Source: a virus. Taken from it: a DNA stretch of 58,039 nucleotides. The notes under the pieces were generated by a model. That model was not told the origin of the DNA and searched no databases. It saw nothing but the letters and a program-made list of their open reading frames with translations. The translations under genes and the position numbers were made by a program. Shown piece after piece: positions 3,237 to 24,825 of the stretch. The stretch's first letter is position 1. The number at the start of each line of letters is the position of its first letter. The stretch lies in IMG/VR virus record IMGVR_UViG_3300037246_001186, positions 1 to 58,039 of that record. The stretch is one strand, 5' to 3'.

Positions 3237-3430
3237 AGGTAAACTCCATAGGTTTCATGATCTCCACTATAATTAGGGAAGTCACTGAACCCAACTACAG
3301 TATTTCGCATAACAGTGTCCATGTCAACCGGTTCCAAACAAATACCTCTCACCTTCTCATCAGGCTTATCAGGCTCGGGGTCTAGTTTGGCCGCAGCCAA
3401 GCGCAGGAGTGATGCTAGTAAACGTCGCAA
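3233..3430 (-). CDS. Small hypothetical protein
   Basis: 65 residues, starting inside the end of the sugar kinase gene (16-base overlap) and ending in an ATGA overlap with the secreted-protein gene. N-terminal amphipathic Leu-rich helix (RRLLASLLRLAAAKL), then an acidic linker and a soluble tail. Support comes mainly from operon continuity. Confidence 0.5.
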   Translation of the reverse strand: MRRLLASLLRLAAAKLDPEPDKPDEKVRGICLEPVDMDTVMRNTVVGFSDFPNYSGDHETYGVYL

Positions 3431-4380
3431 GGCTTCGGATTCTCCACGTAACTCAGTTGATTCAGAATCTGTGTCGCATTCACTATTGAGGTCCTAGGTT
3501 GCAGTACAGCTGCGCGTCCAGCGGCGTTAGCGATCTTCAGCGAGTCATGCCAGTCACCACCAGCAAGGCGGCCAAGCAGCAAGGCGGCAGCGAACACATC
3601 ACCCGCGCCGCACACCATGGGGTCCTCAACGGGTGTCGTTGGAGAGGACTCACCATTCACGATGTCAGCCCCCAAGGGTCCACCCGTTACGACAATGGAG
3701 CAATCATCCCTCAGTCCAGAAGTGTCGAGCAACTCGAACTCCTCAGTGTTGGGGGTTACGCAGTCAAACACGTTGTTCAGTACGAAGGACGGAGTGCTGC
3801 GGTGAGGATCCAGGTGCATGGTCAAGTCCCCGCTCAAAACCTTCATGTCCATGAGGCGGCGCATCATCGGACACCCAATAGCGCCGTGCCCGTAATCAGA
3901 GAATAGGACACCATCAGCCCACCCATGAGTATTACCTAGCTCCCTGGCCATTATGGTGGCACACCCCAGACTGACTTTGCCTTCACTCACTCGATCAATT
4001 CTCACAGCTCCGAAGTCGCTATCAAACGACTCCACGCGAGTCTTCGTAGTTGTCACCACATCAGAGAGCCCAGGAGCTGAGATCACGCTGTTGCGGATGC
4101 GCCACCTATCCATGAGTCTGGTAACGATCTCGGACTCACGGTCGTTGCCCACGAGGCCCACCAGGCACACCTTAGCGCCCATGGCTGCAAGGTTCGCAGC
4201 TACGTTCGCCGCTCCACCGAGATAGGGCGTCTCCGACACCTCGTTATACACAGCCATCTTTCCTGCCGGATCGTCACGGTGGTTGTTGATTACTTCGAGG
4301 TAGGTGTCGAGGATGATATCGCCGACAACGACGACCTTCTTCCCCTTCCACGACTCAATGATGCTGGGTAATGTTGTCAC
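3415..4380 (-). CDS. PfkB-family sugar kinase, HldE/RfaE kinase-domain-like
   Basis: 321 residues from a GTG at 4380 (AAGGGA upstream, GTGA overlap). Features of the heptose-7-phosphate kinase branch of the ribokinase fold: VVVVGDIILDTYLEV near residue 15, LGGAANVAANLAAMGA near 55, TTTKTRV, and the catalytic ATP-site signature CGAGDVFAAAL near 270. HldE-type enzymes phosphorylate heptose-7-phosphate on the way to ADP-heptose for LPS core. The length fits a kinase domain alone, without the nucleotidyltransferase half. With the cupin isomerase and the GT9-bearing glycosyltransferase it suggests phage-directed sugar activation. The fold is certain; the exact sugar is inferred. Confidence 0.85.
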   Translation of the reverse strand: MTTLPSIIESWKGKKVVVVGDIILDTYLEVINNHRDDPAGKMAVYNEVSETPYLGGAANVAANLAAMGAKVCLVGLVGNDRESEIVTRLMDRWRIRNSVISAPGLSDVVTTTKTRVESFDSDFGAVRIDRVSEGKVSLGCATIMARELGNTHGWADGVLFSDYGHGAIGCPMMRRLMDMKVLSGDLTMHLDPHRSTPSFVLNNVFDCVTPNTEEFELLDTSGLRDDCSIVVTGGPLGADIVNGESSPTTPVEDPMVCGAGDVFAAALLLGRLAGGDWHDSLKIANAAGRAAVLQPRTSIVNATQILNQLSYVENPKPCDVY

Positions 4381-4502
4381 TCTTGGTCCCTTCGTTTGAA
4401 TGGTAGCAGCACCAGCTGTACCGGTAGGAGCAGCAACCAAAGTGAAAAGTAGTAGATGACACTCAACAGAGCCATCCACGCTCTGTAGAGATGCCAGCTC
4501 AT
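4377..4502 (-). CDS. 41-residue single-span membrane protein
   Basis: ATG at 4502 overlaps the primase stop (ATGA), and the stop overlaps the kinase GTG. The product has one long hydrophobic segment (MALLSVIYYFSLWLLLLPVQ and onward to LLPF) flanked by a short N-terminus and a basic KRRDQE tail. It is a small inner-membrane peptide of unknown role; a holin-like or exclusion peptide is possible. Confidence 0.6.
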   Translation of the reverse strand: MSWHLYRAWMALLSVIYYFSLWLLLLPVQLVLLPFKRRDQE

Positions 4503-7181: not shown

Positions 7182-7428
7182 ACTCTTCTAGCGCCTCATC
7201 GGACATCGGGTGGCTCAGAGCTTCAGGCTGTAGCGCTAGGGGTATCCCCGCCTTCTTGTCCAGGCGCCCCTGTGGGCGTGTGCAACCGTCCTCATGTTCT
7301 GCGTTGTCCAGCTTCCTTGCACCCACGGCGAGGTTCACCACCCATGTGATGACACCACAGTCCCGACAGCGCGCAGCGGGCATGTCTTGCTTCTTCTCTC
7401 TCTCACCTACAAGGCCATCATCAATCAC
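7174..7428 (-). CDS. Small protein with Cys/His cluster
   Basis: 84 residues from a GTG at 7428 that overlaps the dNMP kinase stop. RCRDCG in the first third and HEDGC further on could bind one zinc. The C-terminus is acidic (SDEALEEYE) and overlaps the sigma-like gene. Function unknown; small zinc proteins next to phage transcription factors are common. Confidence 0.55.
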   Translation of the reverse strand: MIDDGLVGEREKKQDMPAARCRDCGVITWVVNLAVGARKLDNAEHEDGCTRPQGRLDKKAGIPLALQPEALSHPMSDEALEEYE

Positions 7429-8032
7429 CGCTCAATAGCTCCTTGTGTGCCTTCCCTCCGGCGAATATCAACTCATCGACTGCCTGGTAGAGGAAGGTAA
7501 GACGCCCAGGGGGAGCCACAACCAGCGCATCCTTCGGCAGCTTGCGCCACTCCTCGTCGGAGGTGTGCCCAGTTCTTGTGCTCTCAGCACCCAGCTTGAT
7601 AGTCTGCCACACCACACCGTCGCGGCTGTGGATAGCCTCGAACTCATTAGTAAATCGGACATCAGAGACGACCCACTTGCAATCTCGGAAGGCATCTACT
7701 TGAGTAGCGATACCGTGCTTCACCCAAGTAGCCCTATCGAGGAAGCGGAAGCCATCAGTACCGATATGCTCCATGATCTTGCGTCCGGTCTGCGGTGTCC
7801 CACTCGGATCGGTGATACCAGGCAGCTCCTCGTTCTTGTCTGCTTGAGATCCAAAGAAGTGTCGCGGCTCGGCACCTAGTGGTCCGTACACACGGAGGCA
7901 AACTACTTTCAGTGGCTCGGCCCATGACAGACGCCGGTAACCATAATGCTCCACAAGATAGTCCGCTACAGCGTCCTTGCCGGATCCAATGTCACCGCAC
8001 AGTCCGATTATCTGTGGAAAGTTCTCACTCAT
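7421..8032 (-). CDS. Deoxynucleoside monophosphate kinase
   Basis: 203 residues with a Walker A at the N-terminus (GLCGDIGSGKDAVADYL), RLSWAEPLK, then VVSDVRFTNEFEAI in the middle, which together match the phage T4 gene 1-type dNMP kinase family. The enzyme phosphorylates dNMPs to dNDPs to feed phage DNA synthesis. Phages with modified bases also need such a broad kinase. It is coupled to the nuclease-like gene upstream by a 4-base overlap. Confidence 0.85.
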   Translation of the reverse strand: MSENFPQIIGLCGDIGSGKDAVADYLVEHYGYRRLSWAEPLKVVCLRVYGPLGAEPRHFFGSQADKNEELPGITDPSGTPQTGRKIMEHIGTDGFRFLDRATWVKHGIATQVDAFRDCKWVVSDVRFTNEFEAIHSRDGVVWQTIKLGAESTRTGHTSDEEWRKLPKDALVVAPPGRLTFLYQAVDELIFAGGKAHKELLSGD

Positions 8033-9907: not shown

Positions 9908-10504
9908 CTAGCTCCTTGTTTTGGCGGTATCCTTCTTGATACCGCGGACAATTAGAATCTTCTTTGGGATCACACTGATGCCGGGAGGGAAGGACTCGTC
10001 TGTCTCATCCACACCCTTGTTGGTGTACTCCCTGCGTATGAAACCGTTGCGGGCCTGGGCGTTCACGGTCAGCATGTCGGGGTGGTGCTCCTGGACCCAA
10101 TCGATGAAGGCCGCGGGGTCATCCACCGCAGTATCGTAGCGCTCGGACACGGTACAGTTCTCACCGCCTCCACCCATGCCCTTGAACTGCTTGGTACCCT
10201 GCGTCTCCATCGCCTCGATCATCCGCCACTGCTGTGCATCCAGCTCGGCATTCACGATCTTCAGCGACTCCTTTAGAGCTGCTTGTCGATGGCGCAGGAC
10301 CACCACGTCGGCGAACTCGTTCTCAAGGGAGCCAAGCTCCTCAGTACCCAGCTCATTGCTGTCGGTACCGTCGGAGCCTCCTGCATCAGTGAGGAGCTGA
10401 TCGAGGACACCGGGTGTGTCGCTCTCTGGGAAGTGCTTCTGCATCGCTCCATCGAACTGAGCGAGAATACTGGGGTCTGCTTCTTTCGTCTTCTTACCGG
10501 CCAC
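9908..10504 (-). CDS. Hypothetical phage replication-region protein
   Basis: 198 residues from a GTG at 10504 with AAGGAG upstream. Acidic N-terminal third, a coiled-coil stretch (VVLRHRQAALKESLKIVNAE), then a compact C-terminal domain with SERYDTAVDDPAAFIDWVQEH and a GISVIPKKILIVRG ending. The pattern is familiar from phage proteins beside helicases, but I cannot name the family. It is adjacent to the 8966 gene and likely co-expressed. Confidence 0.6.
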   Translation of the reverse strand: MAGKKTKEADPSILAQFDGAMQKHFPESDTPGVLDQLLTDAGGSDGTDSNELGTEELGSLENEFADVVVLRHRQAALKESLKIVNAELDAQQWRMIEAMETQGTKQFKGMGGGGENCTVSERYDTAVDDPAAFIDWVQEHHPDMLTVNAQARNGFIRREYTNKGVDETDESFPPGISVIPKKILIVRGIKKDTAKTRS

Positions 10505-10841
10505 GTATACTCCTTGTCAGCCTAACGCTGTCATCTTCGAAATGTTCAGTTGATACCTCTAGGATCATCGCGCCCTCTGTTGTTAGACACTGAAAACAGT
10601 GGGAGATCCCGGGGAGGATGTCCACGATGTCTCCTTTGCGGAGGTGCATCGGCACACCTCCGAGAGTGAGAAGCACTTCTCCTCCTAGCATAGTGAAGGT
10701 TTCGGTCTTCTTCTCATGGTAATGGATGCTACAACAAGCGCCGAAGTCTACGTACAGAATCTTGCCGCAGTATAGAGGGCTGTTAGCGAGCCACTCCTCC
10801 TGGCCCCACACCTTCTTATGGACCTCGGGTCGTCGGATCAT
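10494..10841 (-). CDS. Cupin-type sugar-phosphate isomerase-like protein
   Basis: 115 residues forming one cupin barrel. IHYHEKKTETF supplies the His/His/Glu metal ligands, GDIVDILPGISHCF the third His, and LEVSTEHFEDDSVRL the end typical of the mannose-6-phosphate isomerase C-terminal cupin. VWGQEEWL at the start also fits. Stand-alone members interconvert sugar phosphates or act in sugar-nucleotide supply. Its presence with an HldE-like kinase and glycosyltransferases supports a sugar role. It overlaps the helicase stop by 4 bases. Confidence 0.8.
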   Translation of the reverse strand: MIRRPEVHKKVWGQEEWLANSPLYCGKILYVDFGACCSIHYHEKKTETFTMLGGEVLLTLGGVPMHLRKGDIVDILPGISHCFQCLTTEGAMILEVSTEHFEDDSVRLTRSIRGR

Positions 10842-12682
10842 AGCGCTGCCAGCATTGATTTCATGGAGTCTCCTGTTACCACGTCGGCTAGGTTCTGCTT
10901 GTTCCGCAGAGCCTCAAGCTGAACGTGTGAGAGTGTCTTTTTCATCCGGTTCCCTCGGGCAGGGGGAGCGAGGCCTAGAAGATAAACTTCAGTCACTGGC
11001 CTAGTCTGCCCCTTGCGGTCAACGCGCTTCCTCGCCTGCGCCCACGTCCCATACTTGAACGTCAACCCATAGAAGAGGATAGTATCTGCGACCGTAAGAT
11101 TCAACCCCTTGGAGCCACATTCCCACTGAACGATGAGAACTCTGCATTCTGGATCATCCTTAAAGCGCTGCCGTCGGAGATCTCGCTCATCCTCCTTGAC
11201 ACCACCATGAAAACTAACTGGATTCCAGCCATTCCTCTCACACATCTCGGACAGAGCCTCAATCTCAGTCGCAGGGTGCTCCGCAAAGATCACGACCTTG
11301 CGCTGCGGGTCGAGCATCGCAGTCTTCATGTAGCCTTCAATGGCATCCAGGAATGGATTAGACTTCAGGGCCTTCCACCCTGCGTCCACGCCATCGCTGT
11401 CCATACACTTCACGAAGCCACCCAGAACCTGAGCCATCTTCTGATACCTGGTGAGGATGTTGCGGCCATCGATCAGGAAGTCACCATGCTCAGCCATCAT
11501 ATCCGACTTCAGCTCGCGCAGAATGCGCCCCTGCTCCGCACTCAGCTCAACAGGGAGCGTGCGGGCAGTCACAGGCGGTAGATCCAGGCAGTCCTTGGCT
11601 AGTGCCCTGAAAGACACCCGGGAGAGGCGCCGGTTGAGGTCGTCAAGGTTGCTATAGCCGGTGATGGTAGATACGAAGCGCGTGCCACCTCCCCTAGTTC
11701 TAACGGAGATGCGCTGCCGACGGGCGTAGGCACGATCGAATGAGAGTGCGGTGTTGAAGCCAAGACACCCGGGCTCCAGGATCTCGAACTGCGAGAACAC
11801 ATCCAGCGGGCTGCACTCCACAGGCGTACCGTTCAGAATCATACGGTAGTCGAACTTCTTCGACAACGTGGTTATCGCGTTGGTCGTGAGAGCATTCGGG
11901 TTCTTAACCTCGCCAGATTCATCAGCCACGAACATACCAGGCGGTGCAGCAGAAATAATGTCCAGTGTGCCCTGAAAGCGAGTAGCGGCGGGTGTCCGCT
12001 TGTTGATGTCGTATGCGAACTCCTCGTAGTTGGTAACGATCCATAGCAGCGAATCAGTCTCCTTGGCGAGTAGGCGCCGGAGGTACGCTTGTCGCTTGTC
12101 GCGGGAGCCTCGCAATATACGGACCTTCGGCTCACCCTCGGTGTGTATAATGACTTCGCCATCGTCGGCTCCCCATGTACCCTTCAAGTGATTCGGCGCC
12201 ACAACCATCACCCACTTGATGAGGCCCTGCGCGTGCAAGTGATTGGCAAGGCCCACAGTGACGAGGGACTTCCCTGTACCCTGCTCCATCAGCAGGGCGG
12301 CGTAGTTGGCTCCAGCCGCGATGCGCGATATGCAGAAGTTCATCCCCCGCACCTGCTGCTCCATAGGCTCGGTACACAAAAGAGGGTCGAAGATCAGCTC
12401 CTGCTCTTTCTCCTTCAGGGACTCCGCCTGATTCAGAGCCTCCCTCATCGATTGAAGATCGTTGACAGCTCCGAGGGCTTCCTTCGCTACCTCAGGGTCA
12501 AACGCAAGCATGATGTCACTGCACACGTCAGCGTCGTAGGGGAAGCTGAACACCGCTGAGCCCTCAACGGTGCCCTCGTGGTGGCACCCGCGGATCTGAC
12601 GCGCAGCAGCGCGCAAGGGGAGGATGCTCGGGAGCACCAGCACCAGGCGCGTGCCGTCTCTGCTTAGTCGGAGCTGCTTCAC
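10838..12682 (-). CDS. SNF2-type DEAD-like helicase
   Basis: 614 residues from a GTG at 12682. Helicase blocks in order: MEQGTGKSLVTVG (motif I, near 140), WIVTNYEEF, MFVADESGEVKNP (motif II), MILNGTPVE (III), VVIFAEHP (IV), CGSKGLNLTVADTILFYG (V), QARKRVDRKGQTRPV (VI). The DESG box and ending are SNF2/RapA-like. It likely translocates on DNA or remodels nucleoprotein during replication or recombination. It is joined by short overlaps to the methyltransferase-like gene before it and the cupin gene after it. Confidence 0.9.
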   Translation of the reverse strand: MKQLRLSRDGTRLVLVLPSILPLRAAARQIRGCHHEGTVEGSAVFSFPYDADVCSDIMLAFDPEVAKEALGAVNDLQSMREALNQAESLKEKEQELIFDPLLCTEPMEQQVRGMNFCISRIAAGANYAALLMEQGTGKSLVTVGLANHLHAQGLIKWVMVVAPNHLKGTWGADDGEVIIHTEGEPKVRILRGSRDKRQAYLRRLLAKETDSLLWIVTNYEEFAYDINKRTPAATRFQGTLDIISAAPPGMFVADESGEVKNPNALTTNAITTLSKKFDYRMILNGTPVECSPLDVFSQFEILEPGCLGFNTALSFDRAYARRQRISVRTRGGGTRFVSTITGYSNLDDLNRRLSRVSFRALAKDCLDLPPVTARTLPVELSAEQGRILRELKSDMMAEHGDFLIDGRNILTRYQKMAQVLGGFVKCMDSDGVDAGWKALKSNPFLDAIEGYMKTAMLDPQRKVVIFAEHPATEIEALSEMCERNGWNPVSFHGGVKEDERDLRRQRFKDDPECRVLIVQWECGSKGLNLTVADTILFYGLTFKYGTWAQARKRVDRKGQTRPVTEVYLLGLAPPARGNRMKKTLSHVQLEALRNKQNLADVVTGDSMKSMLAAL

Positions 12683-13272
12683 TTAGGCCTGGCCACCAGA
12701 TAGCCCTCATGGCGCTGCTGGATCTCGCACAAGTGCGTTTTGCCCAGCGCATCGATGAATGCGTCGGGTGTACCTATCGGACCAAGCGTCACCCTCCCAT
12801 CGGGCTGTGTGTACTTGAATGGTCCGTTGGCGAACTCCTCAGTAGAGTACAGGCGCCAGTCGTCGATGATGAAGACATCGCCGCTGTGATCGTAGTTGCT
12901 ATTGACGATGCTAAGGATTTCATCCTCTAGCGGCAGCTTCGGTGCATCACCAGGGTCACCATAGCGCTCGGGGAGGTGAGCATCCAGCCACCACAGGGTT
13001 GGTCCCTTCAAACAACCAACAATTACCTCAATGTATGTGCGTGAATCCCCCCGAAGAATCGACCACCTCTCATCGCAGGGTCGTTCCAAAACCATTCGGT
13101 CGCGAGCCTTTCGACACAAATCAGGCTGCAACTCAACACTCCACAATCTCTTGAACGGAAACCGCATCGCATGGAGGAGGCCATCACCTTTCCACGTCCC
13201 TGTCTCAACGAAGTTGTTGAGCTTGTAACTACTCTGTATCTGGTAGATAGGCCATGTGCTTAGTAATCCCAT
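12679..13272 (-). CDS. Class I methyltransferase-fold protein
   Basis: 197 residues. FVETGTWKGDGLLHAM resembles the SAM-binding loop, LWSVELQPDLC the next acidic strand, WWLDAHLPERYGD and FIIDDW the later strands of the Rossmann fold, with Asp/His residues as in TylF/FkbM-type enzymes that methylate sugar hydroxyls. The neighbours are sulfotransferases and glycosyltransferases, so a glycan is the likely acceptor. TAATG overlap upstream, GTGA downstream. Confidence 0.7.
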   Translation of the reverse strand: MGLLSTWPIYQIQSSYKLNNFVETGTWKGDGLLHAMRFPFKRLWSVELQPDLCRKARDRMVLERPCDERWSILRGDSRTYIEVIVGCLKGPTLWWLDAHLPERYGDPGDAPKLPLEDEILSIVNSNYDHSGDVFIIDDWRLYSTEEFANGPFKYTQPDGRVTLGPIGTPDAFIDALGKTHLCEIQQRHEGYLVARPK

Positions 13273-13913
13273 TAGCTTCTCACCAGTGCGACCAGGCGCT
13301 GCTTCTGCTCCATCCCAGCAGGTTGATCCTCAGTATACAGGACCTTCCAGTTGTTAGGGATGTGTAGGCCACGGGGAAACCAGCTGTAGCCATTTCCGCC
13401 AGGACCCGTCGCGCCATCGAAAGTCTGGGCAGGATCCGTGGCGAACGATAGGAGCACATACCGATGGAATCCCGTGCGACTGAGGAGGTAGTCAACCAGG
13501 TCGTCATGAACAGAATTCTCGGGGATGTGGTAGAGGACATCCACCGCTGCAACAAGATCAACTCGAAGTGGGTCTTGGAGATCACTAGAGAGGAAGTCAC
13601 CGAAGGTAGAGAGGACGAACTCCAGCTCTGGGTAACGCTCAATAGCGGTCGCTACGATAGGAGCGCAACCATCTACACCCATGTACATGATGCGGTTGAA
13701 ATCCTCCCATCGATCGAGGTACATCATGTCACCGATACCGAAGTCGAGCATTCGAAGGGCAACACCGCGGTGTCCAACAAAGTCCTGATAGATGGCACGC
13801 ATCGCCTTGGTCTTGGTCTCTGTCCACGCCGCGTTGTTACCGGAGAGCTTGCCGTTCCGGGCAAAGGACACCTCCATATGCTTCATCGACTCAATCTCGG
13901 TTGTCGCCTTCAT
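13272..13913 (-). CDS. SAM-dependent methyltransferase
   Basis: 213 residues from the ATG at 13913, which overlaps the sulfotransferase stop (ATGA) behind GGGAG; the upstream in-frame ATG at 13925 is less well placed. Motif I is RMLDFGIGDMMYLDRW, motif II MGVDG, and VDLVAAVDVLYHIPE fits motif IV, all of the class I fold. The residue after motif IV is not a DNA-methylase DPPY or NPPY, so a small molecule or sugar is more likely than DNA. Confidence 0.75.
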   Translation of the reverse strand: MKATTEIESMKHMEVSFARNGKLSGNNAAWTETKTKAMRAIYQDFVGHRGVALRMLDFGIGDMMYLDRWEDFNRIMYMGVDGCAPIVATAIERYPELEFVLSTFGDFLSSDLQDPLRVDLVAAVDVLYHIPENSVHDDLVDYLLSRTGFHRYVLLSFATDPAQTFDGATGPGGNGYSWFPRGLHIPNNWKVLYTEDQPAGMEQKQRLVALVRS

Positions 13914-14698
13914 ACTTTCTCCCATCCGTAACCAAGAGCGGCATAGGCGTCACCAGCCAGCTCGAATAAAAGTTCAAACTCATCGACGTTGAACTCTTGC
14001 TCCCATCGACCGATGCGCTGGGTGCGATTTACTGCGTCATGGAGAGCGGAACTAGCGTGAGCTACATGCTTGTGCGGATTGTTAGTCATAAGGCAAGCTG
14101 CGCTGCGACCTAGTTCCTCAGGATCAATCCCACCTACGAAGCGAGCTATACCCCTCCCTACTATCATAGGGTGCATCACCAAGTCCTCATAGCGAACGAT
14201 GGTGATACTGGAGTCATGGCGACTCCGAGCGAAGGCTTCAAGCCTCGCCCAGAAAGTAGCGATGATGACACGCGCTGGGTACTTCGATAGCTCTTTCGAC
14301 TCGGCGGGTGACAGCGCCCAATCCCACTGGTCGTTGGTGCGCTTGCGTAACCACTCCTCTGTACTCTGGCCATTCTTCCTGTTCGCCCTCACAACACTGC
14401 ACGCCACATCTCGACCGTCCCGAACGATGTGGAGACCACGGCCTCCCGTGATGTCACACACCTCAGCCAAGCGGACGATGTGACGAGGCTCCTTATCCAC
14501 GATGCGCATCTCCCCACGTCGAGTCCACTGACGTAGCGCCGCTGGATCAGATACTCCTTGACCAGGATGACCGAGGCGGAGGATCGCTGCACTCTGCTCA
14601 TAGGCTACACAGCAGTTAGCTACTCCCTCGAAGAGTTGACCGAGGATGGTGGTGCCGCTGCGCCCATGTCCTGCGATATGAATCGGTGTGTAGATCAC
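13910..14698 (-). CDS. PAPS-dependent sulfotransferase
   Basis: 262 residues from a GTG at 14698 (GTGA overlap). GHGRSGTTILGQLFEG near the N-terminus is the 5-prime phosphosulfate-binding loop, and HIVRDGRDVACSVVRANR near residue 90 the 3-prime phosphate-binding segment. These two blocks define carbohydrate and small-molecule sulfotransferases, which move sulfate from PAPS to a hydroxyl. It is one of two in this operon. Sulfotransferases are uncommon in phages. The acceptor is probably the glycan made by the neighbouring glycosyltransferases. Confidence 0.88.
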   Translation of the reverse strand: MIYTPIHIAGHGRSGTTILGQLFEGVANCCVAYEQSAAILRLGHPGQGVSDPAALRQWTRRGEMRIVDKEPRHIVRLAEVCDITGGRGLHIVRDGRDVACSVVRANRKNGQSTEEWLRKRTNDQWDWALSPAESKELSKYPARVIIATFWARLEAFARSRHDSSITIVRYEDLVMHPMIVGRGIARFVGGIDPEELGRSAACLMTNNPHKHVAHASSALHDAVNRTQRIGRWEQEFNVDEFELLFELAGDAYAALGYGWEKV

Positions 14699-15702
14699 TT
14701 TGTACTGTTCCCGGGGAGTAGACGCACAGTGCGCGCACGACGAGTTCGCGCCACCTTGTGGTCCATTTCGGTATTTCCATCGTGTGGTTCGGTCCTGAGA
14801 ACGTTACCTCCAGGAGCGTAGTATCTCGCAGCGTACTGGTTCCGCATGTCATCTCTGATTGCTATGTCCTGCTCGTAGCGAACAGCCGCCATCCCTGGTT
14901 CGGCGATCAGCTCAGTACCATCAGACAGCTCCAACCAGTTCTCATCCACGATGCGGTTGTAGTCTACACTGAACATACCATTAGACCGAACTCGCGCGAA
15001 GGCCAGCCCATGCACCCATGTGTCGATCATCTGACCACGGGCGTAAGGAGGCGGCGGGTCGATGCTCGCCAAGCAACCAATGGACATCGCCATGTACTCA
15101 CCGGTAAGATTGCGAAGAGAGGCAATCTGATACTGATGGTTGTGGCCGTAAATGGTTGATACGCCAGTCTTCTTAATCATGTCAGCGGGAGTGCGCACCC
15201 CCTTGATGTGTCCATGCGTGAAGTGCAAGTCTCCGATCGCCCAGAAGCTGTTTTCAGGTACCCACTCCCACACGCGCTCATCCATACGGAGGCGCCTCTT
15301 GAGATTCACCATGTCACGCATGGTTGGGTACTTGGCCTCGAACTGCGTTGCCCACGCCTCGTGATTACCCTCGATGAAGATCACTTTGATGCCATGTGCC
15401 GCGGTGATGGCTTGAATGTCATCGAGTCGGTTGTTCACCAAGGCGATGTCCTCTTCAACAAAGACTTGATCCGCCCTAAGGGCAGACCAGCGACTCATCG
15501 ACTCCCAGTTTCCGAAGTCTCCGATGATGACGAAGTGGGTTATTCTATCACCGTAATGGACGAGAGCCTGAATCATCAGATCCCAGCACGGGAGTGAATA
15601 CGTCGGAGTATCAATCATATACCCAATGTGAACATCGGGTATGACCATGACGAAGTGTTCCTTCTGAGAGGGTGCCCGCCGCTTCGGAGGTCTGTACGTC
15701 AA
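14695..15702 (-). CDS. Calcineurin-like metallophosphoesterase
   Basis: 335 residues from a TTG at 15702 overlapping the upstream stop behind AAGGAAG. Metal-site blocks: MVIPDVHIGY, IIGDFGNWESM, IEGNHEAW, FTHGHIKG and IYGHNHQY. It is larger than the enzyme at 1042 and not closely alike. Phosphatases of this fold appear in phage DNA repair and nucleotide handling. In this operon one alternative is removing 3-prime phosphate from PAP, the inhibitory by-product of sulfotransferases, but that is speculation. Confidence 0.85.
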   Translation of the reverse strand: MTYRPPKRRAPSQKEHFVMVIPDVHIGYMIDTPTYSLPCWDLMIQALVHYGDRITHFVIIGDFGNWESMSRWSALRADQVFVEEDIALVNNRLDDIQAITAAHGIKVIFIEGNHEAWATQFEAKYPTMRDMVNLKRRLRMDERVWEWVPENSFWAIGDLHFTHGHIKGVRTPADMIKKTGVSTIYGHNHQYQIASLRNLTGEYMAMSIGCLASIDPPPPYARGQMIDTWVHGLAFARVRSNGMFSVDYNRIVDENWLELSDGTELIAEPGMAAVRYEQDIAIRDDMRNQYAARYYAPGGNVLRTEPHDGNTEMDHKVARTRRARTVRLLPGNSTK

Positions 15703-16229
15703 TTAACTTCCTTTGGATCTTCGGGTGCAACAGGACTCTCGGGTACCCCCGCGGCGTTCTCCGCTTCAGTCCACTTCGTGAGGCTATCTACCAGCTCCTT
15801 AGCTTTCTTTCCAAGAGGTCTCTCATCATCCTTCTTGAGGCGACTCTCAGTGACGGTGCTGGGCTTGCCCCGGTCCACGCGCTCCAACTCTATGACTGTC
15901 TTGAGTGCTCGGGAAAGCGTCTCCAATCCGGGAGCCTCGGCTCGCTCAACAGGATTCGGACTCTTGAGTGCCCTGACCGCGTTGTCAAGAGCAGTCTCGA
16001 CAGCCTCAGCTGCCGCCATGGCAACCGGAATCAAGCGCTGCGTGCGTGCCGACTCAATCTCATCCGCCAGTGCCTCGTAGTACGCGAGGAACAGTGGCTC
16101 GCGCAGCCACCGATACAAGGTAGTGCGATTCACTCCCTCGTCAGTGGCGATCTTTGTACGGTGGATGCCTCGTAGCAGTGCCTCTGCTACGCGCTTGTGT
16201 TGCTCGGTTAAGACTGTTAGTCCTGCCAT
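15699..16229 (-). CDS. HTH protein, possible small terminase-type
   Basis: 176 residues. N-terminal helix-turn-helix (QHKRVAEALLRGIHRTKIAT, then NRTTLYRWL) followed by long helices (FLAYYEALADEIESARTQ) and an acidic tail. The layout, HTH plus a conserved aromatic helix, is that of some phage small terminase subunits and of transposase-like HTH proteins. The large terminase is 21 kb away, which weakens the terminase idea. It could instead regulate the glycan operon it sits in. Confidence 0.6.
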   Translation of the reverse strand: MAGLTVLTEQHKRVAEALLRGIHRTKIATDEGVNRTTLYRWLREPLFLAYYEALADEIESARTQRLIPVAMAAAEAVETALDNAVRALKSPNPVERAEAPGLETLSRALKTVIELERVDRGKPSTVTESRLKKDDERPLGKKAKELVDSLTKWTEAENAAGVPESPVAPEDPKEVN

Positions 16230-17008
16230 TATGCCCCTTCCACTCTTATATCAACTCCATTCATCTTTCTGCGATACTCCCTGAGTAAGTCAGGCAACTT
16301 CTTCTCCCACCTCTGGATGAAGTACTCACCATTGTGGTGATCCTGCTTTCCACAGAGAGAGCGGGTACCCCCCTCTCCGTGTATAGCCACAGCGTCACGA
16401 GCGCATCCGACGCTGCCACCCCTCTCCAAGATCTTCAAACACAAGTCAGTGTCCTCAAACCCGTAGTTGTAACCCTCGTCGAATCCGCCCACTTCGTTGA
16501 ATACATCTGCACGCACCATCGCAGCAGCAAACGTCACCGACGGGGTGTAAACAAAACCCTGCCCGCGATAGCGGTCTCGGGGCTCATTCCTTCCAATGTG
16601 GTCGCACCTGTATGGTAGCACGATTCGGGTACCGGCATGATTCACCGTACCGTCCTCATGGAGAAGAAGCGCTCCGATCACATCAGCCTGATTCCGGTAC
16701 CACCACAACCTGTCAAGGAACAGAGGCTCCGGGATGGCGTCGTCATTCAGGAACAGGATCCACTCGGTGTCGGGAGCGGCCTTCACCGCGGTGTTGTTTC
16801 CGACGGAGAAGCTCGTATTGAAGCGCGGATCGAGGGTGGCCCAATCGGCCTTCAAGGCAAGCGATACCTTTTCGGGGTCGCGGTCATTGTTCACCAGGAC
16901 TCCGAGGTACTGCGGAACCTCCCCCTCCTGCTGAGCCAGGGCCTTCAGCAGTCGCTGGAAGTACTTGATGTTTCGGCTCAGCGTCACGATAGTGAGTTCA
17001 CACGCCAT
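16229..17008 (-). CDS. Family 2 glycosyltransferase
   Basis: 259 residues of GT-A fold. ELTIVTLSRN starts the nucleotide-sugar fold, WILFLNDDAIPEPLF holds the DxD-like metal motif, and GGFDEGYNYGFEDTDLCLKI is the catalytic ED segment of GT2 enzymes with inverting chemistry. HGEGG follows near the C-terminus. It transfers a sugar from an NDP donor, probably at the cytoplasmic face. It lies between sulfotransferase and HTH genes with short overlaps. Confidence 0.88.
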   Translation of the reverse strand: MACELTIVTLSRNIKYFQRLLKALAQQEGEVPQYLGVLVNNDRDPEKVSLALKADWATLDPRFNTSFSVGNNTAVKAAPDTEWILFLNDDAIPEPLFLDRLWWYRNQADVIGALLLHEDGTVNHAGTRIVLPYRCDHIGRNEPRDRYRGQGFVYTPSVTFAAAMVRADVFNEVGGFDEGYNYGFEDTDLCLKILERGGSVGCARDAVAIHGEGGTRSLCGKQDHHNGEYFIQRWEKKLPDLLREYRRKMNGVDIRVEGA

Positions 17009-17669
17009 GATGAACTAGCCCCCCATCTACAAACATATCCACACTCTGCCACGCCTGATGACAATTATCGCGCGGCAGTGCCAACTTGTCACCGAGTGTA
17101 GCTACAGGCTCAATGAGGAAGTCTGCGAACTCAGCCTCAACAGCGCCAGGCATCTGAGACCACTTGAAGATCTCCTGGTTGTACACGGCAATCAGCATCT
17201 CAGCTCGCTCCGCGTCCCAGCCCTCACGCGCCATCAGTGACGAAACGATGGCCTCTGGCTTGCGCCTAACGATCACCGGGAGCAGCTCCAAACCCATGCG
17301 GTCAGCGAAACGCCTCCATAGTGGGAGCATCACGCACATCCTCGGATCCTTGACACCGGGCAGATCCACCTCACCCATGCGGTTTAGCTCATACCAACGG
17401 CAGAGACTATCCAAGGCCAAGGTTCCCTCTCGGCTCCAAAAGGCACTGCCTCTTAAGATAGGCCGACGGCACCACGCCCTACCATTCAACGCAAGGAGTC
17501 GATCGTGTGCTCGAACGACAGGCATCGCCTCGTAGTAGCCCTTCGGGTTATCACTGCTCGCGGGCATCAGCTGGTTACCAAAGTCCACCCCCAAGCGAGC
17601 GAGAGTGCCCGCAACAGCAGAAGTCCCACTGCGGTGCATCCCTATGACACACAGAAGCTTACTCGGCAT
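16998..17669 (-). CDS. Second sulfotransferase-family protein
   Basis: 223 residues. CVIGMHRSGTSAVAGTLARL is a clear 5-prime phosphosulfate loop, and LPVIVRRKPEAIVSSLMAREG a 3-prime phosphate site. NPKGYYEAM between them matches the bacterial sulfotransferase branch found in polysaccharide clusters. It differs from the enzyme at 13910, so the two may sulfate different positions. It overlaps the glycosyltransferases on both sides by 11 bases. Confidence 0.82.
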   Translation of the reverse strand: MPSKLLCVIGMHRSGTSAVAGTLARLGVDFGNQLMPASSDNPKGYYEAMPVVRAHDRLLALNGRAWCRRPILRGSAFWSREGTLALDSLCRWYELNRMGEVDLPGVKDPRMCVMLPLWRRFADRMGLELLPVIVRRKPEAIVSSLMAREGWDAERAEMLIAVYNQEIFKWSQMPGAVEAEFADFLIEPVATLGDKLALPRDNCHQAWQSVDMFVDGGLVHHGV

Positions 17670-19896
17670 CAGGCATCACCAGCTCGGGGGCTTCTGGCTC
17701 CTCGATATCGATGAACTCGCGCAGCGCCTTGGCGATACGCCCCGGTGTCAGCGAGGCAACCCACGCACCTGGATCAGCCTTCGGGAACGGGCCAGCGGGG
17801 AACGTATCCCCAGCGATCTCAGTATCCGTCGGAATCACAGATGCAGTAGGCGCCTCGTAGTGACTCAGCCGAGTCTCCGGAGAGAAGAGTGAGAAGCAAC
17901 CCAGCGTCGGGGTACCCACCGCTGCCGCCAAGTGCATGACTCCAGAGTCCGCAGCGACGACTGCCCCCACACACGATAGGATGCACACCAGCGTTTCCAT
18001 ATCAGACTGACCAGACATATCGAGCACCCCATTGAGGCGGATGCCGAGGTTCGTCTCGCCAACGACGAGAGGCGTAAGCCCCATGCCCTTGATGAGCGGG
18101 AACATCTGGGTCAGGTAGTTCCGGGGCAACTGCCGGTGAGGGCTGCCAGACTCGAACGCCAGTGCGACGCATGAAGTTGGATCCACTCCAAACTGCTCCA
18201 GGAACTGCGCCCGGATCATCTGGACCTTCTCCTCATCCAGTGTCACACCGAAGGGGAGGAGTTCATCGTCCTCTAGCCCCATCCAACGAGAAATCGTCAG
18301 AGAACGGTTGACGCTCGGATCTCCCCACGTCGATCTATGCTTCGGAAAGTACAGACCTTCAAGTCGAATCGTCGTGTTGACAGACGTGTTCGGAGTCTTG
18401 TGGGTCTCGTAGGCATCGGCCAATCCCAGTAACCGCGCAAGGTGCAAGCGCTGGCGCTGGACACGAAGCTTGACAGAGCCGTGCTTCCGCAGCGCCTCCA
18501 GGGCCGGACCAGCCATGACGAGATCTCCGTGCCCTGGGTTGTTTACCATGGTCACGAGGAACTCGTGCTCATCGCCGGGTACCGCCATCTTCATCCCACT
18601 TCTCTCCTTCATCAGCTCCTTCTCCTGCTCAGCCACGATGCCAACCCACTGCTGCTGGACACTCTCTAGGCTGGACACTCGCTCGACGAAAGCCCTCCCC
18701 TTATCGCTGTGGCGCTTGAACTTGGGACGCTTCCCATCGATGATGTTCATGATCGTCTTGGCCGCGTTGGCCGCGTTCGGGAAACCCATGCGGCGAGCGT
18801 ACCCTCCACGCATGACGTGTGAGCGCTTCGCTGTCTCATAGAGGTGGACGTTGGGGGTGTCCTTGTGCCAGGCAGCTCGGGCACTATCGTTCGGAACGAC
18901 GCACGGAACGCCACAGGCAAGAGCCTCCCACAGAGGATACTGGAAACCCTCGCCAGTGCTCGTGGAGAGGAACACGTCGGCAGAGGCGTAGATAGTGCGG
19001 GACATCTCCTCTTCGGGGACTCCGCCACCAGCGGGCCAGATGATATCTCTTCCGCGCTGAAGACCATAGCGCTCCGCCATCAGCGGGAGGTTGTAACCGA
19101 GTCCGGCACCCTGCGACTCCTCATCCTCCATCATGTGCTGGTTCAGGAGGAGCTTGCCACGCAGGCTGGGCCGCTGCTTCAGGATGCGCTCCATAACCTC
19201 CTGCGCCATCCAATTGATCTTGCGCTGCTGATTCCGCTCCAACTGGAGGATCACGAACGTATCCGGATCAACACCAAGGCGCTGCTTCGCATCCCGGCGC
19301 TCCTCGTCCGTGGGTATGGCGTACTTCTCCAGATCCACACCGTGAGGGATGACTTTCAGGCGCTGTTCGAGTGCCTCGCGATTCGACTTGCCACCAGCCA
19401 GCTGAATCGTCCACTCCATCAGATCGTGAACATGACTGGCCATAGTAACAGGGACATCGAAGTACGCATCCGCGCCCAGAACGGACATCTCGAAATGTGA
19501 GAGCGGCCCACCATCGACAGGGAACCAACCCATCATGCGAAAGCCAGGATTAGCCTGCCGCAAGGAGTGGAAGACAGCAAGCGCCGACGTTGGCGGTTCG
19601 GTGCCGGGCACCGGATACTTCCACGGAACCTCGGGATCAAACGTCGTCCACATCATATCGAACTCTTCGCCCTGAACGATGCGCGGGATCTCATGGAGTC
19701 CGTAGGGATCCGACTCTCTCAGCGTGGGGGCGTACACCTTCCACGGAATGTCTTGGATCGTCACTGGATCCAGATTCACAGCCAGTTGAGTGATGGTATG
19801 CCCTGCGTCGTGTAATGCGTGGAGGATGTGCTGGGCGGATCGGCCAAAGCCGGTGTGGGCTGTTGGTGCGTCGCACCATGCAAAGATTCTAGCCAC
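17659..19896 (-). CDS. Bifunctional glycosyltransferase, GT4-type plus GT9-type
   Basis: 745 residues from a GTG at 19896 with GGAG upstream. Residues about 1-430 form a GT4-like enzyme: HTGFGRSAQHIL, IPHGVDLEKY, QLERNQQRKINW, and STGEGFQYPLWEALACGVP for the donor site. Residues about 445-735 look like a GT9/heptosyltransferase domain: NNPGHGDLVMAGPAL at its start and AADSGVMHLAAAVGTPTLGCF near its end. GT9 enzymes use ADP-heptose in LPS core synthesis, matching the HldE-like kinase at 3415. The fusion order is unusual in a phage. Domain calls are confident; substrates are not. Confidence 0.85.
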   Translation of the reverse strand: MARIFAWCDAPTAHTGFGRSAQHILHALHDAGHTITQLAVNLDPVTIQDIPWKVYAPTLRESDPYGLHEIPRIVQGEEFDMMWTTFDPEVPWKYPVPGTEPPTSALAVFHSLRQANPGFRMMGWFPVDGGPLSHFEMSVLGADAYFDVPVTMASHVHDLMEWTIQLAGGKSNREALEQRLKVIPHGVDLEKYAIPTDEERRDAKQRLGVDPDTFVILQLERNQQRKINWMAQEVMERILKQRPSLRGKLLLNQHMMEDEESQGAGLGYNLPLMAERYGLQRGRDIIWPAGGGVPEEEMSRTIYASADVFLSTSTGEGFQYPLWEALACGVPCVVPNDSARAAWHKDTPNVHLYETAKRSHVMRGGYARRMGFPNAANAAKTIMNIIDGKRPKFKRHSDKGRAFVERVSSLESVQQQWVGIVAEQEKELMKERSGMKMAVPGDEHEFLVTMVNNPGHGDLVMAGPALEALRKHGSVKLRVQRQRLHLARLLGLADAYETHKTPNTSVNTTIRLEGLYFPKHRSTWGDPSVNRSLTISRWMGLEDDELLPFGVTLDEEKVQMIRAQFLEQFGVDPTSCVALAFESGSPHRQLPRNYLTQMFPLIKGMGLTPLVVGETNLGIRLNGVLDMSGQSDMETLVCILSCVGAVVAADSGVMHLAAAVGTPTLGCFSLFSPETRLSHYEAPTASVIPTDTEIAGDTFPAGPFPKADPGAWVASLTPGRIAKALREFIDIEEPEAPELVMPDAE

Positions 19897-19898
19897 GT

Positions 19899-20300
19899 TC
19901 AGGACTCCAGTGTCTTAGTGAGCTGATCCACATACGCCTGAATTGCCATGCGTGCTCTGGACTTGCTCTGTTTATGCGGCATGATCCCTCTGTCTCTTCG
20001 GTGCTTGGCAATAGTCGCGGAGGCAATACCACTCCGCCTAGCCAGTTCCCGATCAGAGATCTTGCCTAGAAGGTGAACCACCCTGGCCACCCGATCGTAC
20101 TTTGGAATGCGCAACTCTCTTCGTAACCGCCCTACAAGACTACGGTGTACGCCTAGCTCCGCAGCGAGGGACAGATCCGTACACTTTCCCAGACGCATGA
20201 TAATCGAACTGTAGTCATTCCGTTGTCCGGGCTCATGTTCTATGCTAGACTGGTCGATAAGCTCAGCATCGGAGGTAGCACTCAATGAACCAGCCCTCAT
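19899..20300 (-). CDS. DNA-binding protein with tandem HTH repeats
   Basis: Up to 133 residues; the start is uncertain. The ATG at 20300 lies inside the integrase gene, a TTG at 20285 has GAGGG upstream, and an ATG at 20198 has no ribosome site. Two related 35-residue units each form an HTH: LGKCTDLSLAAELGVHRSLV with RRELRI, and LGKISDRELARRSGIASATI with RRDRGI. The C-terminus is basic. It is divergent from the integrase with overlapping 5-prime ends, so it could control integration or the glycan operon below it. Confidence 0.65.
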   Translation of the reverse strand: MRAGSLSATSDAELIDQSSIEHEPGQRNDYSSIIMRLGKCTDLSLAAELGVHRSLVGRLRRELRIPKYDRVARVVHLLGKISDRELARRSGIASATIAKHRRDRGIMPHKQSKSRARMAIQAYVDQLTKTLES

Positions 20301-21172
20301 CCCTTACTTTCAGCGCCTTCGCCTCCATCAGTATTGATCGACGCATTCTCACTGAAGGTACAACTCAAGGATACCTGCGCTTGCTCGATCACGCAACCCC
20401 CACGCTGGGGTGCCACCAGATCGGAGCTATCTCACGCGGACACGTTCAGGAGTGCCTGGCTGATTGTCGCGACAAGCTCTCCCCATCGACAGCCCAGAAC
20501 GTGCTGAAGCTCATCCGAAGCATCCTGAGAGACGCAGGCAGCACCGCTGCCGACAACATCACTGTTCCTGTCCATGAGCCCAGCATCAGAGTGCTGGACG
20601 CAAGTGAGGTTAGCACACTCCGCACGTACCTGGCCGCACTTGAAACACCGACAGCCTACGCCCTCCTCGTACTGATGGGAACAGGCTTGAGGCGGAGTGA
20701 GCTTCTGAATCTGACTGTGGATGATTGGAGAAGTGGGAGCCGACAGCTGCATGTGGCGCGCTCCAAGTCTCGACGAGTGCGAGACGTGGATGTTCCTGAC
20801 TCGCTGTGTGAGGTGCTTGAGAAAGCTGTCTCTGACAGGATGAAACAAGATAGTGTCACTCCTCATTTCGAAAGTCTGAAAAAAGCCCGAGTAAATTTTC
20901 AGAGTAGAGCTGAGACCAGTGGGCCGCTGTTCGCCATCAGTAAAGACACTCTGCGACGCGCGCTGAATAGTGCCTGTGAAGCTGTTGGTCTTCCTCACAT
21001 ACGCATCCACGCCCTGAGGCATACCCGCATCACCTACCTTCTCATCCGAGGTGTCACTCCCCTATACGTTAGCCAGCAAGCAGGACATAGCTCTCCTGCT
21101 TTCACCCTATCGAGGTATGGCCACCTTGTCGCCGCCTCAACAGAGCAGCGAAGATCCTGGTGTAACGCCTAG
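20285..21172 (+). CDS. int: Tyrosine recombinase (phage integrase)
   Basis: 295 residues, the only clear plus-strand gene; GGAGGT precedes the ATG. An N-terminal core-binding domain (about 1-95) is followed by the catalytic domain with MGTGLRRSELLNL (Arg), HALRHTRITYLL (His-x-x-Arg), QQAGHSS (His) and LSRYGHL (Tyr). All key residues are present, so the enzyme should be active in insertion into the host chromosome. It converges on the last tail gene with a 4-base overlap. A repeat shared with intergenic DNA lies inside it at 20870-20902. Confidence 0.95.
   Translation: MNQPSSLTFSAFASISIDRRILTEGTTQGYLRLLDHATPTLGCHQIGAISRGHVQECLADCRDKLSPSTAQNVLKLIRSILRDAGSTAADNITVPVHEPSIRVLDASEVSTLRTYLAALETPTAYALLVLMGTGLRRSELLNLTVDDWRSGSRQLHVARSKSRRVRDVDVPDSLCEVLEKAVSDRMKQDSVTPHFESLKKARVNFQSRAETSGPLFAISKDTLRRALNSACEAVGLPHIRIHALRHTRITYLLIRGVTPLYVSQQAGHSSPAFTLSRYGHLVAASTEQRRSWCNA
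20870..20902. repeat. Repeat copy A inside integrase: candidate antisense terminator or attP core
   Basis: The 22 bases 20870-20891 are identical to 44994-45015, and the core AAAAAGCCCGAG also occurs at 28203 and 35259. Here the arms CTGAAAA (20876-20882) and TTTTCAG (20896-20902) form a 7-bp inverted repeat around 13 bases. On the minus strand it reads as a hairpin with a U-rich end, 270 bases after the last tail gene. Its place upstream of the HxxR, His and Tyr codons also recalls integrases with attP inside the gene. Confidence 0.6.
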
Positions 21173-22125: not shown

Positions 22126-24825
22126 CTAAACTTGTGAAAACCGATCCAACCACCGCTGACCAGTGTTGAACTCATCCGCCCATGTGTCAAGCTGATCGAA
22201 TCTATCAGCCCAAGTAAGCGCCTCAGATATATCCTGAACAGGCGCAACTGCCCTGCATGTGAGATTGAACTTGTCACCATTCTGTGGTTCAGTCATAATC
22301 GACTCGACCACGCAACGAGCGCGCTTCGGTGCGTTTCTAGCTGCCAAGAAATCAACCGTAACAACACTCCCACGATCAAGTCCATGCGCTATCCACGCAG
22401 TGCTGAAAAAGAAACGCAGCTTGGAGAAAGCATAACGCGACGCCATCGCAGCAGCCATTCCAGCCACACTCGTGGCAGCATCATACTTCGAATTGCCTAC
22501 GTCCTGTGAATGAGCCCAGAACTTAAACCGCCCTCTTGGGTCTAGCTGCTCGCCAAAGATAGCCACGCTATCAGCGTCTTCTTGATCCTCTGAACGCTGC
22601 CACGTCGGCTGCGATTCTGAATAGTCTGGAGCGTAATCGATCAAGACTTTGTTAATGATATCAGAAACAGGTGTACGCTCCAGCGTTGTCCCGTTGTTTA
22701 GCATGGTGTTTGTGCCAGAGATACCGGGGAGGACAAACGACTGTACAACCTGAAAAGACTCTACGACAGAGAGTGGCTCATGAAACACCATCTCATGTCC
22801 ACTCGGTCCATAGTGGAAGTCAGCACGCGCCTGTATAGCTAACTGCCTCTCCAGCTCTGACCAGCTATTGATCGGGTCAAGCAAAACAAAGTTCCACCTA
22901 ATGTTCTCATCCTGGTGTCTTGCGTCCGCGGCATCATATGCTGATTCATTGATCGTATTAAGCCTACCATCCACTCCAAGAAGATGCGCCTGTAAACCCG
23001 CCATCGCAGCAGCCGGACGACTGATAGGCTGCTGCGTGAAACCACGGACAGTCTCAGTATCTCTCCAAGGACTAAGGACATCACTCCCATCGGCAGCCAC
23101 CGCATACTCTGTAATCTGCGAACCCCTGAGATCCGGAGGCATGCGAAACACAACATCGGCATACTGCATGACCGGCCCTACAGCACCAGAGACCCCTGTA
23201 CCAACACTGACATCCGTATCTCTAGTCAGCTCTATATCAACTTCTAGGTCATGCTCCCACCAAACCTCCTGGACATTTCCAGCTGTCGCCGAGGACATCC
23301 GCACTGTCTCATTGAAGTTTCTAGTCGTAGGCTGCGTGAATCTGTATGTACCAGCGGAGCCCACAGAGCCAAAGGTGATTGTACCTGTGGAGTCCTTGAA
23401 GTCGACTGAGCCAGTCGAGATAACATGCAGCGTGCTGGCTGTGGTGTCATCATCCGAGAAGGGTGCAGGTGGACTGTTGAATGTGATAGTGATGACATTC
23501 AGTGGATCTACTAGAACCGCAGTTGAAGCGTTTCCATCACGAGCCTCCACATTATCCGCACCTGTTCCACCAGTGCCATAGTTCAACTTACTGGTCATGC
23601 GCTCTTTATTGTTGGTACCAAATACAGGTTGCGCAGTGACCTCTACATCATTCGGATCATTTTGCTCAAAGAATACTGGCACGTTGGGGTCAGCTGTACT
23701 CCCCCTAGGTAGCCTAAGGTATGTTTCGTTATTTCCCAAGTTACTAACATGGGCAGAGCCTCCGCCTGTAACAGAGATCTCAAACGGCCATCGCTCAGGG
23801 TCAGCCGTAACAATGCGCCCACTAGCAAACCTGAAACCCACTGAGCCAGCCAAGTCAGGCGAGTAGAGTAAACGATATTCTGCAAGAGCCCACCGAAAAC
23901 CATCGACACTAGGTACCTCTTGAACATAGGCCCCTCGTGGGACAGCGGCGGCCAAACCGCTTGCCAACTCAAACGTTAGAAGATTGTTGATTGCATCAAA
24001 CACGACAGCACCAAAGTCAGGTACTACCGAATGCACGGGGGTTTGGTAATGCAGCACCACCTTAGTCACATTGACACCACCCGCTGACTTCATCATGTTA
24101 ATACCTGAAGTCAGTGGATGAATCTGAATAACAGTGTCACCAGCGTTATAACCCGACACAGTAAAGCCACGAGTCACAGCAGCTGTCGTGGGTGGCCGAA
24201 ACCATGTATCCGGTCTACCCACCACGATGGGATATGCCTTACCAATATCACGCTTGTCTAAACCAGTGCTATTCGTGGAGGTTGGCTCAGGTGGAATCAC
24301 TAGGCGCTGGCGCACTACCTGATTTCTCTTAGCACCGCGGTTGTACAAAACGATATTAAACCCATCCAGGTTCATATCTTGAGGAGCACCAAAGAAGCCA
24401 TCTAGAACTAGCGTCGTCCAATCTGCGTCAGCTAGATCACTCATGCTTGTACCAGGCTTTAGATAGCCTACACGCAGCGTGGCCTTTGTATTCTCCCATC
24501 CGTAGACATCATCTACAACCGACTCCATCACGGACACAGAGGCATTCAACGGTAGATTCATGACAGGTATGATAATCGCTGGAGAGCTTGGACTGCCACC
24601 AGGAGTGAATGCCGCAGCACGCATCACATTCTGTGGGTATAGAATCATGTTGTCAAACGTCTGACCGAGCGCCTGCCCACTCCGAGTAGACCAATAAAAG
24701 TCCACATCAGAATGAGAACCACGCCCCTTCAACTGACCGCTCAGTAGATAGACCGCTCCCTCAAGATTGGAACGCTGAGTGGCGACACTCTGATTTACTG
24801 AAATGTCAAGCTGATTGCTACTCAT
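22126..24825 (-). CDS. Tail tip / central hub protein
   Basis: 899 residues, the largest product, overlapping the gene before it by ATGA. The N-terminal part has multiple beta segments with DVYGWENTKATLRVGY and GKAYPIVVGRP, typical of hub proteins; the C-terminal part (SWSELERQLAIQARADFHYG, and DRGSVVTVDFLAA) matches the gp27-like ring domains of siphovirus tail-tip proteins. It likely forms the tail tip that opens on receptor binding. Confidence 0.7.
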   Translation of the reverse strand: MSSNQLDISVNQSVATQRSNLEGAVYLLSGQLKGRGSHSDVDFYWSTRSGQALGQTFDNMILYPQNVMRAAAFTPGGSPSSPAIIIPVMNLPLNASVSVMESVVDDVYGWENTKATLRVGYLKPGTSMSDLADADWTTLVLDGFFGAPQDMNLDGFNIVLYNRGAKRNQVVRQRLVIPPEPTSTNSTGLDKRDIGKAYPIVVGRPDTWFRPPTTAAVTRGFTVSGYNAGDTVIQIHPLTSGINMMKSAGGVNVTKVVLHYQTPVHSVVPDFGAVVFDAINNLLTFELASGLAAAVPRGAYVQEVPSVDGFRWALAEYRLLYSPDLAGSVGFRFASGRIVTADPERWPFEISVTGGGSAHVSNLGNNETYLRLPRGSTADPNVPVFFEQNDPNDVEVTAQPVFGTNNKERMTSKLNYGTGGTGADNVEARDGNASTAVLVDPLNVITITFNSPPAPFSDDDTTASTLHVISTGSVDFKDSTGTITFGSVGSAGTYRFTQPTTRNFNETVRMSSATAGNVQEVWWEHDLEVDIELTRDTDVSVGTGVSGAVGPVMQYADVVFRMPPDLRGSQITEYAVAADGSDVLSPWRDTETVRGFTQQPISRPAAAMAGLQAHLLGVDGRLNTINESAYDAADARHQDENIRWNFVLLDPINSWSELERQLAIQARADFHYGPSGHEMVFHEPLSVVESFQVVQSFVLPGISGTNTMLNNGTTLERTPVSDIINKVLIDYAPDYSESQPTWQRSEDQEDADSVAIFGEQLDPRGRFKFWAHSQDVGNSKYDAATSVAGMAAAMASRYAFSKLRFFFSTAWIAHGLDRGSVVTVDFLAARNAPKRARCVVESIMTEPQNGDKFNLTCRAVAPVQDISEALTWADRFDQLDTWADEFNTGQRWLDRFSQV

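Follow-up and report, generated by a model that had tools for sequence, protein, structure and literature searches.

What does a phage do with a set of genes that seem equipped to build a glycan, methylate it and sulfate it? The question is raised by an operon on the minus strand of IMG/VR virus record IMGVR_UViG_3300037246_001186, all 58,039 bases of which were analysed and are referred to below as the window. The window is a tailed phage with an integrase, and a first-pass annotation had read eight of its genes as a complete-looking module for sugar transfer, sulfation and methylation. We found an intact operon that encodes glycosyltransferases, methyltransferases and two sulfotransferases, as assigned by family and predicted fold. 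The parts of this operon are recurrently associated in uncultured phages and, in three contigs, lie within the capsid module. We propose that they form a cytoplasmic system for building, methylating and sulfating a glycan, most likely on the phage's own virion proteins, a proposal to which we give about even weight.

An overlapping operon with a proposed role in glycan synthesis and modification

All eight open reading frames (ORFs) of the module were recovered at the minus-strand positions first assigned to them. In the direction of transcription they encode a fusion of GT4 and GT9 glycosyltransferase domains (17659-19896, 745 aa), a first sulfotransferase, ST1 (16998-17669, 223 aa), a GT2 glycosyltransferase (16229-17008, 259 aa), a helix-turn-helix (HTH) DNA-binding protein (15699-16229, 176 aa), a metallophosphoesterase (14695-15702, 335 aa), a second sulfotransferase, ST2 (13910-14698, 262 aa), and two methyltransferases, MT1 (13272-13925, 217 aa) and MT2 (12679-13272, 197 aa). 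In the same order, translation would start at GTG, ATG, ATG, ATG, TTG, GTG, ATG and ATG, and consecutive genes overlap by 11, 11, 1, 4, 4, 16 and 1 bases. Thus, the run described in the first-pass annotation stands, with two sulfotransferases, two methyltransferases, GT2 and the GT4-GT9 fusion in one overlapping series upheld by families and folds, but the overlaps span 1-16 rather than 1-11 bases, there are no gaps, and the HTH gene had been left out of its title. Eight genes is also too short an extent for the operon itself, which reads on into an SNF2-type helicase gene (10838-12682, minus strand, 4-base overlap; PF00176, PF00271 and phrog_62) that lies outside the glycan module, a cupin gene (10494-10841, 4-base overlap) and one further gene (9908-10504, 11-base overlap). 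All eight frames are open and carry conserved motifs. The GC content at third codon positions (GC3) of the cassette matches that of the phage core genes, so the cassette shows no obvious sign of recent insertion or of an assembly join.

The profile searches proposed with the module were run and placed most of the genes by Pfam or PHROG; ST1 and MT2, which lack a Pfam match, were placed via homologs and predicted structure. Residues 3-422 of the fusion matched phrog_2170 (E-value 1.7e-23), its GT4 part also matching PF13692 (32.7 bits, cut-off 27), and the GT9 part (residues ~440-745) matched PF01075 at 35.1 bits (cut-off 22). Matches of the GT2 protein were weak but consistent (PF13641 under cut-off, E-value 2.6e-5; NF041875, E-value 5e-9). 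MT1 is an S-adenosylmethionine-dependent methyltransferase by its match to phrog_3382 (E-value 2.4e-10) and a weak one to PF08241. The AlphaFold model of MT2 has a confident O-methyltransferase fold that matches COMT, PaMTH1 and TylM1, and relatives of MT2 carry a fused GT9 or GT2 domain. No transmembrane segment is likely in any of the cassette proteins, the single hydrophobic peak corresponding to a GT9 motif, and this fits a cytoplasmic acceptor.

Two sulfotransferases of different subfamilies

ST2 is a canonical sulfotransferase by its matches to PF00685 (42.9 bits, cut-off 22, E-value 5e-11) and PF13469 (42.2 bits, cut-off 27, E-value 1.5e-10). It is predicted to depend on 3'-phosphoadenosine 5'-phosphosulfate (PAPS), both PAPS-binding motifs being recognizable: the 5'-phosphosulfate loop GRSGTT (residues 12-17; 14648-14665, minus strand) and the 3'-phosphate motif RDGRDVACS (residues 93-101; 14396-14422, minus strand), which has the R-x7-S form. 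Both are conserved in the relative of ST2 encoded on viral contig L044.

ST1 is more divergent, and its own sequence gave no match to Pfam, NCBIfam or PHROG families at an E-value of 0.1. It was placed in a divergent subfamily of P-loop sulfotransferases on the strength of homologs, a structural model and invariant columns. In a 24-sequence alignment, 17 of whose members matched PF13469 (Sulfotransfer_3), the 5'-phosphosulfate-binding-type loop GMHRSGTS (residues 10-17; 17619-17642, minus strand) is mostly invariant or nearly so, residue 15 being variable. Conserved between ST1 and its relatives are a loop of the GxHRSxTS type, the motif KDPR and a pair of the form R-x7-S. The last of these, a 3'-phosphate-binding-type motif, consists in ST1 of R136 and S144 (17238-17264, minus strand; spacing 8), and the SULT enzymes carry R130 and S138 at the same spacing. 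The AlphaFold model of ST1 (pLDDT 85) came closest in the PDB to the curacin and olefin-synthase sulfotransferases (4gbm, 4gox) and to the tyrosylprotein sulfotransferases TPST2 and TPST1, with TM-scores of about 0.5-0.57 that denote a shared fold and not close kinship. A kinase-type NTPase was considered for ST1 and is disfavoured, since kinases mostly ranked below sulfotransferases in the structural comparison and the homologs match Sulfotransfer_3. That these proteins might be unrelated NTPases, an outcome that the first-pass annotation had named as fatal to its reading, was thus tested and not found.

Metallophosphoesterase, HTH protein and PAPS supply

The remaining two genes of the run fit less readily into glycan chemistry. 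The metallophosphoesterase, on the minus strand as are all eight, had been suggested to remove 3'-phosphoadenosine 5'-phosphate (PAP), the inhibitory product of sulfotransfer. Known PAP phosphatases belong to the inositol-monophosphatase family. The protein matched only calcineurin-type families (PF00149, over cut-off, and PF12850) and phage metallophosphoesterase families (phrog_221), and the inositol-monophosphatase profile (CysQ type) found no match in it. Its sole relative among sequenced phages lies in the replication module of HTVC033P, after the DNA polymerase gene and with no sulfotransferase annotated nearby. On family and context the PAP phosphatase role is therefore rejected. The HTH protein is of the small-terminase/transposase-HTH type (PF13022, over cut-off; phrog_2538, E-value 8.6e-7), and the two genes are probably passengers of the operon that stand outside the glycan chemistry. 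No APS (adenosine 5'-phosphosulfate) kinase was matched in the window record, so that PAPS would have to be derived from the host.

Recurrence in viral contigs and fusion in bacteria

Pattern scans of viral contigs with single sequences of ST1, ST2 or the GT4-GT9 fusion found nothing, and alignments were required as queries. With an alignment query, a narrow pattern search retrieved relatives of ST1 from 41 uncultured viral metagenome contigs. ST2-type relatives in viral contigs were limited to L044 and, by a short match, L138. The 50,697 phage records yielded a single ST1-type relative, in the record of Pseudomonas phage Y4, likely a bacterial contamination, and tblastn of cultured phages for the paired-sulfotransferase types likewise returned none apart from this record. 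The Y4 record (locus L005, accession OQ572406) is marked UNVERIFIED. The 10.8 kb of it examined, read from translations, encode a histidine kinase, an APS kinase, glycosyltransferases and the ST1 relative; having no recognisable phage genes, this stretch looks like host DNA and the match was set aside. The claim that such sulfotransferases are rare in phages thus holds insofar as the ST1 type was not found in cultured phages, but must be softened in view of the 41 viral contigs and of other subfamilies that are already annotated.

The search of gene neighbourhoods, likewise suggested at the outset, showed that related sets recur in other viral contigs. Across 28 distinct contigs, 117 genes lie no more than three places from ST1; Pfam assigned 20 of them to GT2, and others to methyltransferases, UDP-sugar dehydrogenases, further glycosyltransferase families and additional sulfotransferases. 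Counted with a home-made GT2 profile, GT2 was about five times commoner within three genes of ST1 than six or more genes away (14/153 versus 4/220, Fisher p 0.0013). Two sulfotransferases of different subfamilies stand close together in five other viral contigs (L049, L044, L013, L017 and L015).

Fusions bring the same domains together in single polypeptides. Of 53 bacterial loci, 13 have ST1 and GT2 fused in one reading frame, and a single 1957-aa ORF of a Chloroflexi locus (L170, 5935-11805, plus strand) comprises ST1, several GT2 domains, a TPR region and an ST2-type sulfotransferase domain. MT2 is found as an MT2-TPR-GT9 fusion in L130 and joined to GT2 in L137. That several of the window's genes have counterparts elsewhere that are domains joined to a glycosyltransferase supports a functional link among them.

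Related sets within capsid modules

The position of these sets in other phages bears on the identity of the acceptor. On contig L049, one strand encodes in succession the large terminase, a portal-like protein, a minor head protein (phrog_24776), GT2, ST1, ST2, a scaffold-like protein, a capsid-like protein and a GT2-GT2 protein. Two divergent relatives of this contig, L044 and L045, have a portal-like gene, one more gene, the minor-head gene, GT2 and ST1, and the full GT2-ST1-ST2 series follows the minor-head gene in both L049 and L044. Of 48 distinct GT4 loci, 13 (the cultured cyanophage S-CBS4 among them) have the same minor-head gene immediately ahead of GT4. Genes flanking GT4 match portal, minor head, head and terminase families, and portal, minor head and virion proteins are abundant in the PHROG counts for these neighbours. 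Two further arrangements were found. In L111, ST1 is followed by GT4 with a 4-base overlap; this pair comes after a virion structural gene and is flanked on either side by a copy of a gene that is repeated there. The MT2-TPR-GT9 fusion of L130 is encoded a few genes past a capsid-like gene. Because two types of glycan cassette occupy the same slot of the capsid operon, virion proteins are suggested as the acceptors.

Several observations weigh against this reading. The contigs were picked for their GT4 or ST1 content, so that selection partly accounts for their lying next to the minor-head gene, and the portal and capsid genes of L049 were named by position and sequence, PHROGs having matched only its large terminase and minor head genes. 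A sulfotransferase was detected in only 3 of the 45 phage records with this GT4, the window included, and some GT4 genes adjoin primase or exonuclease genes. ST1 relatives of bacteria are often parts of large glycosyltransferase fusions of the surface-polysaccharide type. In the window itself, the operon reads on into the helicase gene, and the cassette (19896-12679) lies past the tail genes, where it adjoins the integrase gene (20285-21172, plus strand) and an HTH gene beside it (19899-20300).

Proposed function and competing explanations

We infer the activity of the system, the order of its steps, its sugars and their chemistry, and its virion acceptor as follows. The GT4-GT9 fusion and GT2 would add two or more sugars to one or more virion proteins of the phage, MT1 and MT2 would O-methylate these sugars, and ST1 and ST2 would O-sulfate them with PAPS from the host. 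Released particles would then bear a short, methylated, sulfated and negatively charged glycan. Regarding the three targets first envisaged, the relatives favour the virion, the host surface keeps some plausibility, and DNA finds little support in the window.

A host-surface target would amount to lysogenic conversion, in which the LPS (lipopolysaccharide), capsule or exopolysaccharide of the host is sulfated and methylated and superinfection through the same receptor is blocked. The neighbourhood of the cassette suits this explanation, an integrase and an HTH gene marking a usual site of conversion genes, as do the fusion of bacterial ST1 relatives to GT2 and the presence of an APS kinase gene near ST1 in 4 of the 53 bacterial loci and in the Pseudomonas Y4 locus. 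GT9, moreover, is classically a heptosyltransferase family, and the phage has a gene for an HldE-like kinase at another site. Yet the operon has no flippase, no polyprenyl-phosphate glycosyltransferase and no membrane segment, and the GT2-ST1-ST2 relatives belong to a capsid operon, the genes of which are normally expressed late in lysis; we consider conversion unlikely. We think it improbable that the enzymes modify a small molecule or a host glycolipid unrelated to the receptor, or that the genes are cargo with no present function: ST1 does score in no family library, but the eight overlapping frames are open, with conserved motifs, and their parts reappear, and are fused to one another, in unrelated phages and bacteria. 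Hypermodification of DNA, with the enzymes glycosylating and sulfating modified phage bases, appears very unlikely, for although DNA modification linked to glycosyltransferases and sulfotransferases has been proposed from genome analysis (Iyer et al. 2013, as cited in PMC10829341) and the window encodes a T4 gp1-type deoxynucleoside monophosphate (dNMP) kinase (7421-8032), a scan of window ORFs found no enzyme that would create a hydroxylated or otherwise anchored base, whether a dCMP hydroxymethylase- or thymidylate synthase-like protein, a TET/JBP protein or a member of a related family.

Genomic setting of the cassette

Nearly all genes of the window lie on the minus strand, among them those for DNA polymerase A (45995-48337), the large terminase (37201-38712), the portal (35276-37267) and the major head protein (32739-33545); tail genes extend down to about 21.2 kb. 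No DNA-level similarity to the cassette was found among the 50,697 phage records, and a search for the host by way of prophages with the same terminase found none among 84,980 species genomes. Far from the operon, a PfkB sugar kinase (3415-4479, minus strand) has as its closest match the heptose-7-phosphate kinase domain of HldE (TIGR02198, 130.6 bits, well under the cut-off of 345; structure 4e84) and might supply a donor for a GT9-type transferase.

Other genes of the window deserve brief mention. A large tail-region protein (22126-24825, minus strand) has a GC3 of 0.48, against 0.57-0.74 in the other genes measured, and is possibly a recent exchange. The window also encodes a stand-alone GGDEF diguanylate cyclase domain (476-1045, minus strand; PF00990, E-value 5e-39) and a second metallophosphoesterase (1042-1653, minus strand), relatives of which occur in 16 fetched loci; the 12 of these that were listed include S-CBS4 and other GT4-bearing contigs. 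One scanned ORF matched PF09056 (prokaryotic phospholipase A2). By sequence, this is probably 38818-39267 (minus strand), a neighbour of the large terminase gene, and a gene resembling it lies ahead of the terminase gene in L003 (1250-1723). An RNA ligase (53889-54839, minus strand; PF09414) is encoded in the same region as two tRNA genes (His and Pro).

Relation to known systems and implications

The proposed sulfating set would be a variant on a known theme, the modification of phage glycans by glycosyltransferases and methyltransferases. Glycosylated virions are known from a few phages, among them mycobacteriophages with genes for both enzymes, whose capsid and tail-tube proteins carry glycans (Freeman et al. 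2023, reported through passages of PMC11600133, PMC12619734 and PMC13313380). Like the window, that system combines several phage glycosyltransferases with a methyltransferase; it differs in that those passages mention no sulfotransferases and in that its glycan was demonstrated by experiment, ours being deduced from genes. The phrog_2170 proteins of the cyanophage or Microcystis phages S-CBS4, Mae-JY09 and TJE1 belong to the same GT4 family as that of the window. Their genes lie within or next to the virion structural genes; two of these phages have an annotated methyltransferase gene close by, and none has a GT9 fusion. The Gtr serotype-conversion cassettes share with the window the placing of glycosyltransferase genes near a phage integrase, but the operon has neither GtrA/GtrB nor a membrane Gtr, and does have sulfotransferases and methyltransferases.

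The literature describes single phage sulfotransferases, the function of which a 2023 paper calls unclear (PMC10580990). Those of S-SCSM1, FoX4 and OM43 phages (phrog_3347) are of the PAPS type, like those of the window, but belong to other subfamilies, and the literature searched contained no report of their pairing within a glycosyltransferase operon. In bacterial fusions such as L170 and L177, one large multi-domain polypeptide contains ST1 and GT2, and in one case an ST2-type domain as well, whereas the window encodes them in separate genes. In the open-access literature, the coverage of which was incomplete, we found reports neither of a phage cassette for sulfating glycans nor of a sulfated glycan on a phage particle.

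It is possible, and in our estimate a little short of an even prospect, that several lineages of tailed phages coat capsid or tail proteins with a sulfated and methylated glycan by means of a glycosyltransferase-ST1-ST2 set and host PAPS. The recurring GT2-ST1-ST2 series provides a concrete unit, the apparent absence of which from cultured phages could be the reason that it has escaped notice. If this reading is true, such phages would control the surface charge and chemistry of their particles, with a bearing on adsorption, diffusion and recognition.

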